Virus record (IMG/VR): IMGVR_UViG_3300025120_000319
Coordinates: 1-30,537 of that record
Source of the DNA: a virus
Reading direction: 5' to 3' (one strand)
Length of the DNA: 30,537 nt
Position 1 is the first letter of the stretch, and the number at the start of each line of letters is the position of its first letter. Of this stretch, positions 23,074-30,537 are shown one piece after another. The notes beneath the pieces are model-generated. The model was not told the DNA's origin. It made no database searches and saw nothing but the letters and a program-made list of their open reading frames with translations. The position numbers and the translations under genes are program-made.

Positions 23074-23304
23074 TTAATCTTTCTTAGGAGGCTTCTTATC
23101 TTGTGCTTTCCTAATATCATCCATAATAGTGTTTTTAGGTTGTTTTAGATTTAAGGCCTCAACATCTACAATTTTAGTTGAATCGTCTGTGTCTATATCT
23201 AAAAACTTAACATGAGGTTCATTTATCTCTTTGAATCCGTCTTTAGGATTTCCAGAGTAAAACTTTTCACCATCTGTCCAATAATCGTGTTTAATTCTTT
23301 TCAT
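23074..23304 (-). CDS. Small charged protein, 76 residues
   Basis: The protein starts MKRIKHDYWTDGEKFYSGNPKDG, then VKFLDIDTDDSTKIVDVEALN, and ends with a Lys-rich tail (DIRKAQDKKPPKKD). AAGGAGAACAACAAG precedes ATG 23304. It overlaps the end of the small terminase gene by 14 bases. Function unknown. A probable terminator follows it. Confidence 0.72.
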   Translation of the reverse strand: MKRIKHDYWTDGEKFYSGNPKDGFKEINEPHVKFLDIDTDDSTKIVDVEALNLKQPKNTIMDDIRKAQDKKPPKKD

Positions 23305-23707
23305 CTTGTTGTTCTCCTTGTAATGACTCTACCCAGGGTAAAGGTTCGTTTGAGTCAGTGTTAATTAACTGATCTGACATCCCTAGCATATTTTTAGCAA
23401 GGAAAATTTGCACCGCCGCATTCATGTTTTTACAAGCATTGTTGAGCATAGCACGTCTTAAAGTTATCTTTACTTCTTCACGCCCTTTTGTAAGATATTC
23501 CGCAAAGTTGTATCTTAAGGTGTCTTCCTTAATACCAAAAAAGTTTGATATCTCATTATCTCTACAGCCTAATGCGGCTAATTTTTGCACTTCTTCTGGT
23601 GCAATTACTATTTTGTCACGGCCTACACATATACCTTTAACAGTTGCTTCTACAATCTGTTTGGGTTTAGGGCCGGGTTTGTTTACCAATTGTTTTTCTA
23701 CGGACAT
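23291..23707 (-). CDS. terS: Probable small terminase subunit
   Basis: This protein has 138 residues. A helix-turn-helix spans about 37-70 (APEEVQKLAALGCRDNEISNFFGIKEDTLRYNF). Then AEYLTKGREEVKITLRRAMLNNACKNMNAAVQIFLAKNMLGMSDQ follows. This order (GCxxxEIxxFFGxxxxTLxxxF, KGRxxxKxxLRRAxxxxA, WLxKNxLGxxD) is typical of phage TerS proteins, which bind pac or cos DNA and feed TerL. It is unusual in lying 2.8 kb upstream of terL, past the early cluster. A strong GGAGG precedes ATG 23707. A plain DNA-binding regulator is the alternative. Confidence 0.72.
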   Translation of the reverse strand: MSVEKQLVNKPGPKPKQIVEATVKGICVGRDKIVIAPEEVQKLAALGCRDNEISNFFGIKEDTLRYNFAEYLTKGREEVKITLRRAMLNNACKNMNAAVQIFLAKNMLGMSDQLINTDSNEPLPWVESLQGEQQDEKN

Positions 23708-23745
23708 TGTATCCTCGCCTCCTTTGGAGTTGTTATCTTAAACAT

Positions 23746-23754
23746 ATATTTATT
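23746..23754 (-). promoter_or_regulatory. AATAAATAT box before the small terminase gene
   Basis: On the minus strand AATAAATATATG overlaps the stop codon of the HNH-like gene and lies 39 bases before the small terminase start. It is a weaker form of the recurring TAAATA box. Confidence 0.3.
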
Positions 23755-24253
23755 GTAATCCTACAAGACCAGCAAGTTTTTGAGTAAAAGACTTAGATTT
23801 AGTCTTAGTCTTACGGCGTCTAGTATATTTGCATGTGCAGGCACTTTGTATGCTCATGCCTTGCTTTAATCTATCGTAATAAACCCAAGTAGGTATGTTA
23901 TTTGCTATTGCACGTCTACGTCCTATAGCACGATCTGACAAATAGACTGTGTTAACTCTAATGCGTGTTGTAGGATCACCTTTGACCCAATTGTGTGGTC
24001 CATATGGTTTTGATGTGTCCTTGCGATGTAGGTCTGAAACGTGTTCAAGATCACCTACACTATCAAAGAAGTTAATGAATCCTTCTTGACCATATTCTTT
24101 AATGCTCCATTCATCAACTATTTCATAATAACCGTTTTGAGTGCCATTATAACCTTTTGCTCTCCATACAGGATCACAGCGTTGATTGATGGCATACCAT
24201 ATACGCCAAGTCTTGATGTAGTCCTTGCGTAGTTCTGTGTATAGACTGCTCAT
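23750..24253 (-). CDS. Divergent HNH/AP2-like DNA-binding protein
   Basis: This protein of 167 residues has the plan of phage AP2/HNH proteins: WRIWYAINQRCDP (16-28), GYYEIVDEWSIKEYGQEGFINFFDSVGD (41-68), then DLHRKDTSKPYGPHNWVKGD (74-93) and RIRVN. In usual members this reads SLDRIDNxGxYxPxNCRWA. Here Cys-Arg is lost (HNW) and DRID is HRKD, so nuclease activity is doubtful. A basic tail (YTRRRKTKTKSK) follows, with a CTC pair. It could be a transcription or packaging regulator. It overlaps the 94-residue gene as ATGA and precedes the small terminase. Confidence 0.65.
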   Translation of the reverse strand: MSSLYTELRKDYIKTWRIWYAINQRCDPVWRAKGYNGTQNGYYEIVDEWSIKEYGQEGFINFFDSVGDLEHVSDLHRKDTSKPYGPHNWVKGDPTTRIRVNTVYLSDRAIGRRRAIANNIPTWVYYDRLKQGMSIQSACTCKYTRRRKTKTKSKSFTQKLAGLVGLQ

Positions 24254-24534
24254 TGTGTTTTACCTAATAGTGTTTCTATTGTGCGTAGTTTGAGTTCAAT
24301 TTCTCTTACACGTTTGATTGTGTCTTGCACTTCAATAGGTGGTTTGAATTCATCTATCCACGTGTCATTTTCTTCTACTTCTATTGCTATCATTTCTTGA
24401 TTGTGTTCAAGAAACGCAATACGTTCTACTATACCAAAGTAGGCCCATACAGCAATTCCTGTAAATGCTATAAGACTTAGAAGATTCTTAAGTGGTATAG
24501 TAAACTCACTTTGTTCATTTAATTTATTAGCCAT
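24250..24534 (-). CDS. Single-pass membrane protein with coiled-coil tail
   Basis: This protein of 94 residues starts MANKLNEQSEFTIPLKNLLSL, with one membrane segment at about 14-37 (LIAFTGIAVWAYFGIVERI). An acidic linker (EVEENDTWIDEFKPPIE) and a C-terminal heptad helix (TIKRVREIELKLRTIETLL) follow. CCGGAGAAT precedes the ATG, and TATAAATACT (24557-24566) lies further upstream. Close relatives by look occur in marine phages with no set role. A holin or spanin-like lysis job or membrane anchoring of replication are both possible. Confidence 0.75.
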   Translation of the reverse strand: MANKLNEQSEFTIPLKNLLSLIAFTGIAVWAYFGIVERIAFLEHNQEMIAIEVEENDTWIDEFKPPIEVQDTIKRVREIELKLRTIETLLGKTQ

Positions 24535-24566: not shown

Positions 24567-24574
24567 AGAATTAT

Positions 24575-25093
24575 ACAAATACCACTTATTAAGTGGTGTT
24601 TTGAGCAGTATAACAAAGCCAAACTCTGTTTGTCTTACTCAATCACTACGCTTTGCTTCGTGATATCGTTATTCCTTTTTTTTTAATTGTTTTTAGTATC
24701 ACCGTTGGAAGATCATATCAACGCCTATTACAGGCGTATCAAATAATACTAACAGCATCGCCGCTATCATATCATATCCAATTACCTAACCACATTGTGG
24801 AACAGTAGGTTTTGCTATCACTGTATTAAGGGCATATCTTACGCAACAAACAACTGCTATTGGATCAGCAAGTGTTGTTTGTTTGATGGTGGTATTTCAG
24901 TTGTAATCCATCTCACTTTTAGTAGGCGTTCCTACTCAACTATTAAGACTCATAGCAAACGACAATCACCCTTAGGGGTGTTCATTTAAAGCATCCTTGT
25001 TGCCAAGGGTAGTGCTAGAGAATTGCATACAAGCAATGCAGGTTACTGTCTCACATCAGAACAGATTCACCAACGGTATTATCTACTGGCCCG
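24575..25093 (-). ncRNA. Candidate large structured non-coding RNA
   Basis: This 519-base stretch has no credible gene and is dense in inverted repeats. An 8-bp long-range pair, TTTGCTAT (24811-24818) with ATAGCAAA (24952-24959), encloses three hairpins: a 10-bp stem 24845-24854/24874-24883 extended by 4 bp, GATGG/CCATC (24885-24889/24908-24912), and AGTAGG/CCTACT (24921-24936). Others outside are 24581-24597, 24620-24632, 24642-24664, 24721-24737, 24784-24810, 24967-24980 and 24995-25008. The last transcribed hairpin (24581-24597, 7 bp) could end it. It may be an ornate phage RNA of the GOLLD/ROOL kind by size and place only, or a replication origin. The strand is inferred from the flanking genes. 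Confidence 0.5.
24581..24597 (-). terminator. Hairpin closing the non-coding block
   Basis: ACCACTT pairs with AAGTGGT around a 3-base loop. On the minus strand it is followed by ATTTGTATAATTC, a weak U-rich run, and then by the TATAAATA box. It may mark the 3' end of the candidate RNA. Confidence 0.45.
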
Positions 25094-25285
25094 TCAACCT
25101 TGTGTCTTGTTTCTAAGTGCCTTAATAAGAGATCGTTGTTCATTGAGTTTTGCCTGTTGTGTTTTAAGTTTTTTTGCCTTGTTTGTTTTATGCCATGCTG
25201 AATCAAAACCTTTACTAGGTGATGTAAAATAATCACGGTCTAGTGTGGTCACGTATGAATGTCTATTCCAATTGATGTTTGCCAT
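25094..25285 (-). CDS. Small basic protein, 63 residues
   Basis: The protein starts MANINWNRHSYVTTLDRDYFTS and continues SKGFDSAWHKTNKAKKLKTQQAKLNEQRSLIKALRNKTQG. The C-terminal half is a strongly basic helix that would suit binding RNA or DNA. AAGGAAAGACC gives a good ribosome site. It is the only gene between two candidate non-coding RNAs and has its own promoter (25365-25393). A role with the adjoining RNA is an attractive guess, not shown. Confidence 0.7.
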   Translation of the reverse strand: MANINWNRHSYVTTLDRDYFTSPSKGFDSAWHKTNKAKKLKTQQAKLNEQRSLIKALRNKTQG

Positions 25286-25306: not shown

Positions 25307-25314
25307 TATTTATC
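25307..25314 (-). promoter_or_regulatory. GATAAATA box in the leader of the 63-residue gene
   Basis: On the minus strand this reads GATAAATAACT, 22 bases before the start codon. It fits the recurring TAAATA box and would give the gene a second, later promoter beside the sigma-70 one at 25365. Confidence 0.3.
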
Positions 25315-25364: not shown

Positions 25365-25393
25365 AGTATACACAGGTTTACTATCAAAGTCAA
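25365..25393 (-). promoter_or_regulatory. Sigma-70 promoter, TTGACT-17-TATACT
   Basis: On the minus strand the -35 is TTGACT (25388-25393), the -10 is TATACT (25365-25370) and the spacer is 17 bases. It lies just past the terminator at 25415-25440 and drives the 63-residue gene and perhaps the non-coding block after it. Confidence 0.8.
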
Positions 25394-26568: not shown

Positions 26569-29500
26569 TTAGGTTACAATATGCTCTCTTGTTTCTTTAA
26601 CAATAGTATGTTCTCTTGCTTCTGAAACAATTGAATATTCTCTTGTTTCTGCCGGAATTTTATAAACAATGTCGTCAATGTTGATAACCCTAACATCCGC
26701 ACTAATTGTTATATTACTATTTATTACGCTTGTTACAGATACCCGTTTTCCAGCGGTAAACGAGCCTGTTACAACAACATTAGCATTTACAATGCCAAAT
26801 CTTATTCTATTACCATCAGCAGTTTGTGTAAAGTTGCTGATCATAATTATTTCATTATTTCTAGATGCTACTGCTGTAACATCAAAGCCGCCTTCGCCAC
26901 TTAGTGTTGCGTCTGCTGTAACAATTTTAACAGGTGTTGATTCAACACTTGCAACAATATCAAAGTCTGCTTCACCAGTAATATTTGATGTGCCTTCTAC
27001 GTCAACTGTAATAGCACTATCAAGACTTGAAATACCTTGTTTTGTTAAACTAATATCTGATGTTAATGTAGAATCAACAGTTGCAACAATTACATTGCCT
27101 GTGGTCTTACGTGCTATTATTGTTAGACTACTTGCAACATCTGCATCTATTAAGAAATCACCAATTTTAGCAACTGCTGTTAATTGTGTAGCAACACTTG
27201 GAAGTTCTGCTTCTAGTGTTCTTGTTACGCTTGGTGTTACATCAGTTACGCTTACTGCAACGTCAACAGTTGATTCTGCATCAACAGTTTTTATAACAGT
27301 TGCATCAACTGTTGTTGCACTTGTTACAGTTGCAACAAACGGTCTTGTTCTATTGCAATCAACTGCTGGAAGATTAAACGAACTAGTAAGAACAGCGTTA
27401 AAGTCTTTGGTAGTTGAATTATCTGCACTTAGGTTAAACACACTTGCAAATGAACCAACACCAAATCTAATTCTATCGCCTGTTGTGCTAGTATCAAATG
27501 CACTTGTTAGATTAGCAGTTGGGTCAATAATAGTGTTTACTGTAACTGCTACTGAACTATTAGTTGTTAATGTTGCACTAAATGATTTGAATAATGTTTC
27601 GTTAGTTGTTTGAGCAAAGTCACTTGTTAGTGTAGCAACACCGCTACCAATAAAGTTTGGATTTGCAGTTTGTGTAAAGGCACTATCTGCATTAACAAAG
27701 AAGTCACCTATTTTAACTGCAACACTTATTAGAGTGTTTATACTGTCAAAGTCAGCGCCTGTTGTTTTAATAAGTCCAGCGTCTATTTGGCTCGTAAATA
27801 GCAAGTTAGCACTTGAACTTGCTGTTACTTGTTTAACTGCTGTAACGCCTACTGTTGACGCTGTATTGCACGTTATAGACCCACTATCTTTAATTCGTAA
27901 CCCTGTTGCTGAAACACTTGTTGAACTTGTTATTGTTGCTGTTGCTGTTCTAACAACATCTGTGTTGGCTACTACATTTGAAGCACTTGAAATACTTGCG
28001 GCACCATTTGCAATAACATATGTTAAATCTGCTGTTACACTTGCAACTGCTGTAATTGTTGCTGACGGATCTACTGTATCACTAAATCTACTGTCGTCAT
28101 TAAGTGTATTATCAAAATGCATCAGTAGGTCTGTGTTTAGACCATTTTCATATGCAGTAGTAGGAACTGTAATAGTTGCTTCACTGTGACTGCTTAGAGC
28201 ATCATCACTAACTAATAATTCATCAATTTGGACTGCACCAAAAGGAGTTTCTATAAGTATTTCTCTACCTATACTATCAAGACCAAATGATTGTTGATTT
28301 ATGTATCTAGTTCCATTAATCCAAACACTAACTCCACTGTCATTTACTATTCTTATGTGATTCCATTGATTGTTTATTATATTATTGCCTGCAGAATGAT
28401 TATTTGAATTACCATCTGACAGAGAGGCATTAGTGTTATTAGGAGCAAGAATTGACCAATTAAAAGTGCTTGTTGAATTAACAGGATTAAGTTGGAATAA
28501 TCGAAGTCCACTATTTGATGTTTGGTATACATTAAAATCAATTGTTTTCCATGTGCCGAAGTCTGTATTATCACCTCTAGATATTATTAGTTGAGGCGTT
28601 AATTCGCTGTCAGTAACTGATCTGTTTATACTAAATGAATTACCATCGTAAGTAACAAAAGAACCATTTGCATCACTGAATATATAATTGCTACCATCAT
28701 GTGCACCAGCGCCTAGACTAACACTTGTATGTCTATAATTTACATAGTTGGTTGCTTCTGCTAAATTGTTAATACTACTACCAACAGCAAATCTACCAGT
28801 TGTGCCACCAATTATATATTTGCTGTCAAAATAATCCATATAATCAAGTGCTAGATTGTTAATGTTAAAAGAGGTGCCACTTGTAAAACTATTACCATTA
28901 GCAGTTGTGTAAACCTTATGGTCACCTGTGTTAAAATTGTGTGTTAGAATATGATACGAACCGTTGATATAATTTATAGGACTGTTTATACTAGACACTC
29001 TTTCGTATTGGCTACCATTAACAACAAAGTCTAATGTTCCACCTGATGAGTTGTCATAAAACGATACATAGTAAAGATTTGTGCTATTGATTCTACGTTC
29101 AATTAACCAGGCAATGTTATTACCGTTTTGTGTGACTCCTCTAATATTGTAAGTATCACCGGATCCTGTTGAATTGAATACACCAACGTGTGTAGTAATG
29201 TTTAAAGAGGTTATGCTTGATGTTTTACCAACTCTCCATTGGTTACTAAATCCGCCTCCTAGATAATAATAAGAGCCGTCCCATGCTATTGTATTTCTGT
29301 GAAAATTACTACTACCAGAATAAGAACTTACAGTAGTAGTATCTGATGTCCATGTTATTCCATCACTTGAACTATAAATTGTTCCACCATCTCTAAGTAT
29401 GAATAAACTATTTAGGTAAACAATCTTAAGGTATGGACTGTTAAAAGTAATATTTAAATTTGTTGAAGTTCTAGTCCAACTTGTTCCGTTAGTTGAAGTC

Positions 29501-30417
29501 CAAACAAAATTTGTTCCCCAACTGTAATAGGTTGATCCTACATATAAAACATTTGAATCTGGTTGAACATAAGTTCCATTTGTAAAGGATAGACTGTGCG
29601 TTCCAAACTTTTTATTTGAAGCGTCAAATGTAATATAACTTGAATTGGTAATTGTTGCTGAAGTATTTCTAACGTGTATCTGTGCTGAAATACTTGTAGC
29701 AAATTCACTTGATAGTGATGCTTCTGCTAAGGCGTTTGTTGTGCCTTGGAAACTTAATGCTGATGTTGTATTGAATGTTGCATCTGTAGATGCTGTTTTA
29801 ACTGGGGTAGAAGACTGAGTAAAAGAGGTAGAAAGAGCGGAATCAAATACCGCTGTTTTGACACCTTGTAAACTAAGATTAACAATGTTGCTAAGTGTTG
29901 CTTCGTTGCCACTAAACTTACTCACAGTTGCATTCATTGATATTGAACTTACCAATGTTGCTGTAATTACTTTAATTGTGCCGGTAGTAATTGACGGAGT
30001 AAACAATGCACCAAAGTCTGCTTGTGCGTCTACTGTTTTAACTGCTGTTGAACTTACTGTAGATGCAACTGATAATGACGTTGAATCATCACCATCTATT
30101 GTTAGTAATAATCCACTATTTGATGTTAATCCAAAAGAACTAGAAAGAGTTGCACTTCCTTCTGTTTCAGTTACTTCTGTTAGGTCTGCACTAATAGTTA
30201 CTGCTGTTGCAAGTGTTAACGGGTCAAGGTATTTTATTGTTTCAGTATACCCAGCATTCCAATAACCTTCTTCAACATATCTAGTGGCCGCTAAAAATTC
30301 TTCAGCATTACAACTAACTGTTGATGTAACTGTTAATGATATTGCATTGGGTTCAACAACAACTTGAAAGTATCCTGCTTCAATATACCCACTTTCTACA
30401 TATCTAATAGTAGCCAT
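26569..30417 (-). CDS. Large tail fibre / receptor-binding protein
   Basis: This protein of 1282 residues starts with two copies of RYVExGYxxAGY (residues 5-16 and about 47-58). It then has many 25-35-residue beta repeats of the form A-x-L-x-S-x-F (to about 260), a LamG-like shell at about 265-800 holding a propeller-like insert (STNGTSWTRTSTN, SSSDGITWTSDTT, AWDGSYYYLGGG), and more beta repeats. The C-terminus has Glu-Thr-Arg-Glu units (PAETREYSIVSEAREHTIVKETREHIV) often found at the end of marine phage fibres. This C-terminal part sits at the low-coordinate end. The propeller holds the strain differences between the two terminal copies, so it likely contacts the receptor. Confidence 0.85.
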   Translation of the reverse strand: MATIRYVESGYIEAGYFQVVVEPNAISLTVTSTVSCNAEEFLAATRYVEEGYWNAGYTETIKYLDPLTLATAVTISADLTEVTETEGSATLSSSFGLTSNSGLLLTIDGDDSTSLSVASTVSSTAVKTVDAQADFGALFTPSITTGTIKVITATLVSSISMNATVSKFSGNEATLSNIVNLSLQGVKTAVFDSALSTSFTQSSTPVKTASTDATFNTTSALSFQGTTNALAEASLSSEFATSISAQIHVRNTSATITNSSYITFDASNKKFGTHSLSFTNGTYVQPDSNVLYVGSTYYSWGTNFVWTSTNGTSWTRTSTNLNITFNSPYLKIVYLNSLFILRDGGTIYSSSDGITWTSDTTTVSSYSGSSNFHRNTIAWDGSYYYLGGGFSNQWRVGKTSSITSLNITTHVGVFNSTGSGDTYNIRGVTQNGNNIAWLIERRINSTNLYYVSFYDNSSGGTLDFVVNGSQYERVSSINSPINYINGSYHILTHNFNTGDHKVYTTANGNSFTSGTSFNINNLALDYMDYFDSKYIIGGTTGRFAVGSSINNLAEATNYVNYRHTSVSLGAGAHDGSNYIFSDANGSFVTYDGNSFSINRSVTDSELTPQLIISRGDNTDFGTWKTIDFNVYQTSNSGLRLFQLNPVNSTSTFNWSILAPNNTNASLSDGNSNNHSAGNNIINNQWNHIRIVNDSGVSVWINGTRYINQQSFGLDSIGREILIETPFGAVQIDELLVSDDALSSHSEATITVPTTAYENGLNTDLLMHFDNTLNDDSRFSDTVDPSATITAVASVTADLTYVIANGAASISSASNVVANTDVVRTATATITSSTSVSATGLRIKDSGSITCNTASTVGVTAVKQVTASSSANLLFTSQIDAGLIKTTGADFDSINTLISVAVKIGDFFVNADSAFTQTANPNFIGSGVATLTSDFAQTTNETLFKSFSATLTTNSSVAVTVNTIIDPTANLTSAFDTSTTGDRIRFGVGSFASVFNLSADNSTTKDFNAVLTSSFNLPAVDCNRTRPFVATVTSATTVDATVIKTVDAESTVDVAVSVTDVTPSVTRTLEAELPSVATQLTAVAKIGDFLIDADVASSLTIIARKTTGNVIVATVDSTLTSDISLTKQGISSLDSAITVDVEGTSNITGEADFDIVASVESTPVKIVTADATLSGEGGFDVTAVASRNNEIIMISNFTQTADGNRIRFGIVNANVVVTGSFTAGKRVSVTSVINSNITISADVRVINIDDIVYKIPAETREYSIVSEAREHTIVKETREHIVT

Positions 30418-30537
30418 CTAAACCCCTTACGTATTCTTATCTTCGACTACACTACTGCCATTTGTGCCGTCAAAACTTACAAGTTGTATTGTGTTTGAAT
30501 CATTTTCAAGTGCCGCACTTGGTTGTGTGTATGAACT
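28915..30537. repeat. Right copy of the terminal redundancy
   Basis: This is the partner of 1-1623. It contains the N-terminal part of the 1282-residue fibre gene and the last 111 bases of the LamG gene that is complete at 1513-2979. If the two copies are one locus, the unique genome is 28,914 bp and gene order continues from 28914 into base 1. Confidence 0.93.
30427..30537 (-). CDS. LamG fibre protein, C-terminal end (cut by window edge)
   Basis: This is the last 37 codons of the gene that is complete at 1513-2979, with identical sequence, ending DGTNGSSVVEDKNT and TAA at 30427. It is cut by the right edge and repeats the left copy because the molecule closes on itself. Confidence 0.85.
   Translation of the reverse strand, partial: SSYTQPSAALENDSNTIQLVSFDGTNGSSVVEDKNT

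Follow-up and report, generated by a model that had tools for sequence, protein, structure and literature searches.

We identified a structured noncoding RNA of about 500 nt on the minus strand of the window, the whole 30,537-base stretch of viral DNA analyzed here, on the basis of homology and covariation (positions 24600 to 25101, with the 3' end probably falling between 24600 and 24578). With a probability of roughly 60%, the role of this folded RNA is a structural or scaffolding one, exerted in trans in the course of lytic infection, and satellite-like islands carry a copy as well. The main genes of the virus record lie on the minus strand, and the genes present, which include portal, TerL, TerS, capsid, and tail genes, mark a small tailed phage. 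Positions 1 to 1623 and 28915 to 30537 are 99.1% identical, an imperfect repeat, and this terminal redundancy of the contig implies that the genome is probably complete at approximately 28.9 kb. The RNA occupies a noncoding gap of approximately 560 nt between a basic, codirectional 63-amino-acid (aa) open reading frame (ORF) upstream (25094 to 25285, minus strand) and a 94-aa ORF downstream (24534 to 24250, minus strand); the downstream genes encode this 94-aa protein, an HNH nuclease-like protein, and the small terminase subunit (23291 to 24534, minus strand). The RNA begins near 25101, 8 nt inside the 3' end of the 63-aa ORF. The initial annotation of this DNA, made from the sequence alone, had described that ORF as a small basic protein gene; the basic ORF is present, but its status as a protein-coding gene is uncertain because no homologue was found in the relatives that we fetched. 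A tRNA search of the whole window was empty, in agreement with the earlier claim that the gap holds no tRNA.

The RNA can be divided into three domains, all on the minus strand. The 5' domain (24984 to 25101), defined by covariation counts and by a match to a hold-out model (R3, below), contains P1a (25099-25097/25090-25088), P1b (25094-25091/25076-25073), P2' (25071-25070/25042-25041), P2 (25064-25060/25050-25046), whose loop UUCUGAUGUG is near invariant, and P4 (25008-25004/24999-24995). As P1a crosses P1b, the two form a pseudoknot. A two-tier hairpin, P5 (24957 to 24987; AAAUGA/UCGUUU plus CACCC/GGGUG), was drawn from the predicted fold and covaries by eye in relatives. The core domain (24795 to 24918), based on covariation counts and a second model (R2), carries the motif UUGCGU and the helices P6 (24912-24908/24889-24885), P7 (24883-24874/24854-24845), and P8 (24823-24819/24807-24803), the last enclosing GAUAGCAAAACCU. 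The 3' domain (24696 to 24785), recognized by a layout conserved in relatives, contains the hairpin P9 (24737-24731/24727-24721), flanked by partial direct repeats (D1 and D3; 24766 to 24785, 24712 to 24731, and neighboring positions).

Support for this architecture comes from alignments of 57 diverse 5' domains, the window included, and 30 core domains. A structure-free mutual-information scan recovered P1a, P1b, P2, P2', and P4 in the 5' domain and P6, P7, and P8 in the core. Both sides have changed in 15 of the 18 pairs of the 5' domain, P1b among the helices that covary across the 57 sequences, and 91.7% of cells are paired in the named structure in the 5' and core domains alike. The covariation score is 0.601 against 0.163 in shuffled alignments for the 5' domain (57 sequences) and 0.594 against 0.164 for the core (30 sequences). 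With partners slid out of register, covariation does not exceed 0.13; because the structures were picked on the same alignments, this control is biased towards them, but the margin is still large. Covariation among homologues, the absence of which the initial annotation had named as a refuting outcome, is therefore present, and its proposal of a large ornate RNA is borne out in the 5' and core domains. Read on the minus strand, the alignments hold 63 G-U cells versus 24 A-C cells, more than half of the G-U cells coming from one pair, an excess consistent with the RNA being the minus strand; this strand assignment is well supported. The relatives have no conserved ORF in the RNA, and the sense strand of the window RNA encodes at most 23 aa, so a conserved small protein in place of an RNA was rejected for want of an ORF common to them. 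Core model R2 scores the window at 99.3 bits, the window itself being in that alignment, and matches the held-out island loci L325, L327, and L328 at the expected place with 59 to 75 bits; the four diverged-core phage loci included in that search (L127, L168, L130, and L148) were missed.

Folding and repeat content are consistent with these results. The predicted minus-strand fold of the gap is better than those of 100 out of 100 shuffles (-143.1 versus -122.7 ± 6.4; z = -3.2), and the plus-strand fold is weaker (z = -2.5) yet also better than all shuffles. The gap had been described as dense in inverted repeats, and we counted eight pairs of at least 8 nt; the 10-bp arm pair singled out earlier is real and corresponds to P7, in which all six counted pairs have changed on both sides. 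The proposed 8-bp long-range helix (24701-24708/25070-25077) did not survive comparison with relatives. Its 5' half (CCGT, 25076 to 25073) is part of the conserved P1b, and its 3' half aligns with the motif CTTCCTAGYRAWG, which by inspection is noncomplementary in relatives.

Relatives of this RNA occur both in phages and in chromosomal islands of water bacteria. A protein-guided search for related phages yielded L013 and then L085, L066, and L040; the equivalent gap of L013 is 70% identical over 297 nt, with visibly compensating stems. Two DNA patterns from conserved loops were then scanned in viral contigs and genome contigs, and at least about 150 loci, a few on the same contig, were confirmed by a nucleotide profile. 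The RNA is present on more than 100 contigs of uncultured phages, which belong to two or more unrelated kinds. In small phages like that of the window, it lies between a tail-adaptor gene and TerS. In T4-like phages, the order is gp47, gp46, an approximately 80-aa protein, and a SegE GIY-YIG nuclease, followed after approximately 40 nt by the RNA; SegE GIY-YIG adjoins the RNA in about 70 loci, and in most T4-like loci a same-strand gene starts 340 to 450 nt after the 5' domain. The 5' or core domain went undetected in many phages closely related to that of the window, a point against the trans-acting reading, and phages of this type can thus do without the RNA. Upstream of TerS in five of these relatives (L019, L021, L023, L025, and L029), the gap keeps a similar 3' hairpin and a GAGCGNTAGCG-type tail, with no 5' or core domain above E 0.03; these gaps hold either highly diverged or truncated RNAs. 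Scans with exact matches or short patterns from the window alone gave nothing but chance matches, and L097 to L100 and L102 look like coincidences in coding DNA. No match was obtained by blastn of the gap or its relatives against isolate phages and plasmids, nor in the nearest isolates examined (DSL-LC06, at 11 bits, and the gp46 region of Atu_ph07 and PAC2). As side observations on the T4-like loci, the gene after the RNA in L127, L163, L168, L195, and others encodes unrelated-looking proteins with a common N-terminal M(K/R)(I/V/L)xE(I/L)(I/L)xE, possibly a targeting tag, and the SegE GIY-YIG protein (by Pfam) at L163:9831-10259 matches PHROG 447, "NAD synthetase", at E 5.8e-36, a name that looks wrong.

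The closest catalogued RNA is Polynucleobacter-1 (RF01718), which was scarcely mentioned in the literature that we searched. L040 matches this model at 73 bits, and 18 of 20 mostly T4-like loci pass its gathering score, the T4-like members at 45 to 83 bits. The window stays below the gathering score, with no match in the region at E values up to 5, and none of 13 island loci reaches E 0.5; for this reason homology was tested by hold-outs. Covariance model R3, built from 14 sequences (L040 plus T4-like loci, none of the window type), finds the window at 24984 to 25103 on the minus strand (34.1 bits, E 1e-7 when searching its own genome, a rough value as for all of the model E values) and 11 of 12 other held-out loci. 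A nucleotide profile of T4-like loci only recovers the window at 33.3 bits (E 9.4e-9) together with each of the 57 non-T4 loci; conversely, a profile made from non-T4 loci only recovers 58 of 58 loci of the other group. These sequence comparisons place the window RNA as a divergent, longer relative of Polynucleobacter-1 below the threshold for Rfam membership, and some 350 nt past the end of the Rfam model are also conserved. Our best reading is that the window RNA belongs to a broad superfamily of which Polynucleobacter-1 is the only catalogued piece. Kinship with GOLLD and ROOL, which the gap had been said to recall, fell away: neither model matches in the window in a scan of all 4,227 Rfam families, no tRNA is present, and the homologues are of the RF01718 type instead. 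Against Rfam as a whole, the gap gave only chance-level matches with E values up to 5 allowed.

Candidate transcription signals frame the RNA on the minus strand. A GATAAATA box upstream of the 63-aa ORF (25307 to 25314), a consensus match only, is the candidate promoter of the RNA transcript, with a sigma-70-like alternative at 25393 to 25365. At the other end, a hairpin just ahead of a promoter-like box had been noted before, and indeed the terminator-like hairpin ACCACTTAATAAGTGGT (24597 to 24581) precedes a T4-late-promoter-like TTATAAATA box for the 94-aa gene (24567 to 24559), again a consensus match only. A strong intrinsic-terminator-like hairpin of 10 pairs with a T-run also lies just upstream of the RNA's transcription unit (25441 to 25419, minus strand). 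The T4 late promoter consensus is TATAAATA. Boxes of the form xATAAATA number six on the minus (coding) strand of the window and none on the plus strand, and TAAATA occurs 24 versus 10 times; the minus-strand boxes include those at 25314, 24567, 23754, 20547, and 25613, several of them just before genes. These boxes are probably late promoters with a T4-like consensus. TAAATA lies upstream of the RNA in 17 of 17 islands, mostly at -20 to -35 nt (shuffled mean, 2.5), and close upstream of 15 of 53 phage copies, most of which thus lack it; all of these are consensus matches only, in AT-rich DNA. The pattern suggests that both phage and island may produce the RNA at a late stage of infection.

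Chromosomal copies were found in Polynucleobacter, Methylophilaceae, Yoonia, SAR116, and others. Most are accompanied by a divergent DUF6641 gene, and in 9 of 11 regions read, a recombinase of approximately 200 aa lies downstream of the RNA on the same strand, with variable cargo in between, some of it restriction-modification-like from our reading of the sequences. The module of RNA, DUF6641, and small recombinase recurs in proteobacterial islands, at L313 to L323, L239, L254, L267, L270, and L296. The islands carry one to three integrases, with larger integrases nearby and, in several, tRNA genes too. Islands with different cargo have approximately 540 nt in common from the same 5' start, and the RNA is followed by a gene that differs among islands and in many cases lies on the other strand. 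The RNA is present in 28 of 151 genomes of the genus of L239, the locus of Polynucleobacter hirudinilacicola MWH-EgelM1-30-B4, in one to three copies, in 3 of 136 genomes of the order of the SAR116 genome, and in 4 of 398 genomes in an even draw of the phylum, a patchy distribution that is the pattern of a mobile trait. No capsid, terminase, or packaging genes were seen in the islands, and "satellite" is thus a label by analogy. We found no described counterpart of the RNA-DUF6641-small-integrase module and no mention of DUF6641 in the literature searched, and the predicted DUF6641 fold (mean pLDDT, 77) had no match in the PDB. The Yoonia region (L319:1-19501) holds two RNA-recombinase modules approximately 15 kb apart and several DUF6641 paralogues. 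A 250- to 270-aa island family with a YxWWxxLxxxxEY-like motif also recurs (L313:5324-6094, L295:1772-2581, and L319:8961-9755); the scanned copies matched nothing in Pfam or PHROG.

The 3' domain shows an additional constraint. Two short segments of 6 to 10 nt, here called X, flank P9 and are identical within a locus but different between loci. The arrangement CTC-X ... YCT-X is present in 84 of 134 loci with 21 distinct 6-nt versions of X, whereas identity falls to 0.2% when segments are swapped between loci of different X and to 0.15% in shuffles. The 84 loci are related and do not represent 84 independent events; even so, the 21 distinct versions imply that within-locus identity was kept through many changes. 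Examples are L317 (offsets 367 and 422), L168, L156, and L160; in the window, the repeat is only degenerate (GATATGAT repeats). An internal anti-repeat for X was rejected, its complement occurring at chance level (7 of 24 versus 7.5 expected). No clear excess of X copies was seen near the RNA, and a cassette arrangement with X copies at cargo borders was not convincing apart from one copy in Yoonia L319, where a third copy of the segment, AGCAAAGTC, follows the recombinase at a distance of 57 nt.

Several other explanations deserve weighing against action in trans. The RNA could be a cis-acting leader or intergenic regulator of the downstream gene with which it shares a transcript, a role already suspected by those who discovered Polynucleobacter-1; as we read the table of Weinberg et al. 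(2010), that motif is marked as probably cis-regulatory (PMC2864571), and the same-strand gene that follows in most T4-like loci fits this. However, downstream genes differ between groups, those of the islands frequently lie on the other strand, an arrangement that argues against a simple leader and favors action in trans, and in the window the terminator-like hairpin and new promoter-like box divide the RNA from the 94-aa gene. We consider a leader unlikely. Similar doubt attaches to a DNA or RNA element that serves genome handling in cis, be it a packaging signal near TerS, a replication origin, or a recombination site beside integrases. Its neighbors are suggestive, namely, TerS in the window's phage group, the recombination genes gp46 and gp47 in T4-like phages, the small tyrosine recombinase in islands, and frequent homing-type nucleases, but the pairing fits one strand better and extends over approximately 500 nt with conserved loops, and the T4-like neighbors are not packaging genes. 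An origin as the sole explanation, the main alternative named at the outset, is disfavored by the minus-strand G-U excess and the many unrelated genomic contexts; a clear GC skew switch is absent at 24.5 to 25 kb, and the short repeats in the gap exist but are part of the RNA's 3' domain.

A multimeric, RNA-only cage or scaffold, comparable to GOLLD and ROOL but unrelated in sequence, would be a more specific form of the trans-acting reading. GOLLD and ROOL form cages (PMC12286853), and the RNA resembles them in its size, its ornate fold, and its occurrence in phages and mobile islands, but the window lacks a tRNA neighborhood, and this specific form is possible rather than probable. It is improbable that the superfamily is programmable, with the X pair serving as guides or as matching overlaps that direct a recombinase or nuclease. 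Segments that differ between loci yet match within them and find complements in the RNA no more often than by chance would suit such a role, as would the small tyrosine recombinase that travels with the RNA in islands; the window itself has the repeat in a degenerate version only. We give very little credence to a mobile ribozyme or intron remnant carried with an adjoining nuclease, HNH in the window and SegE GIY-YIG elsewhere, since group I intron, group II intron, and HEARO models have no Rfam match, the RNA sits between genes rather than inside one, and these nucleases were not seen in islands.

Under the preferred reading, a trans-acting RNA of lytic infection, the RNA would be transcribed on the minus strand from a promoter upstream of the 63-aa ORF, and its transcript would stop short of the promoter-like box at 24567. 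The product would then act in trans, either by itself as a folded RNA or as the scaffold of an RNA-protein complex, and satellite-like islands would each have a copy under a late-phage-type promoter and so produce it upon phage infection. What the data show is the folded structure, the homology to RF01718-type RNAs, and the settings in phages and islands; we infer that the RNA is expressed late, works in trans, and is linked to satellites. These findings imply that a motif catalogued in 2010 at 141 nt is the front of a large ornate RNA, which joins GOLLD and ROOL on the short list of large phage RNAs without an assigned function. Unlike the uncultured phage, the named Polynucleobacter host strains make expression and role directly testable, and an explanation is needed for the covarying direct repeats, an unusual constraint.

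Comparison with known systems places this RNA beside several of them. Like tyrosine-recombinase islands at tRNA genes, to which the name of phage satellites is given here by analogy, the RNA-bearing islands have integrases and defense-like cargo, but they differ in having no packaging or capsid genes that we could see. GOLLD is likewise large and ornate and found in phages and integrated elements, with many members above 800 nt (PMC12286853), whereas the window RNA matches no GOLLD model and has no tRNA nearby. ROOL is comparable in size (a studied ROOL is 659 nt), in its phage and prophage context, and in having no known protein partner; the window RNA differs in lacking a match to its model and in not adjoining a tRNA island. 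With Polynucleobacter-1, the window RNA shares the 5' domain with its pseudoknotted P1, the P2 loop UUCUGAUGUG, and CACUAYCC-P4, but the Rfam entry models 141 nt, whereas the full RNA extends to approximately 400 to 550 nt, core and 3' domains included.
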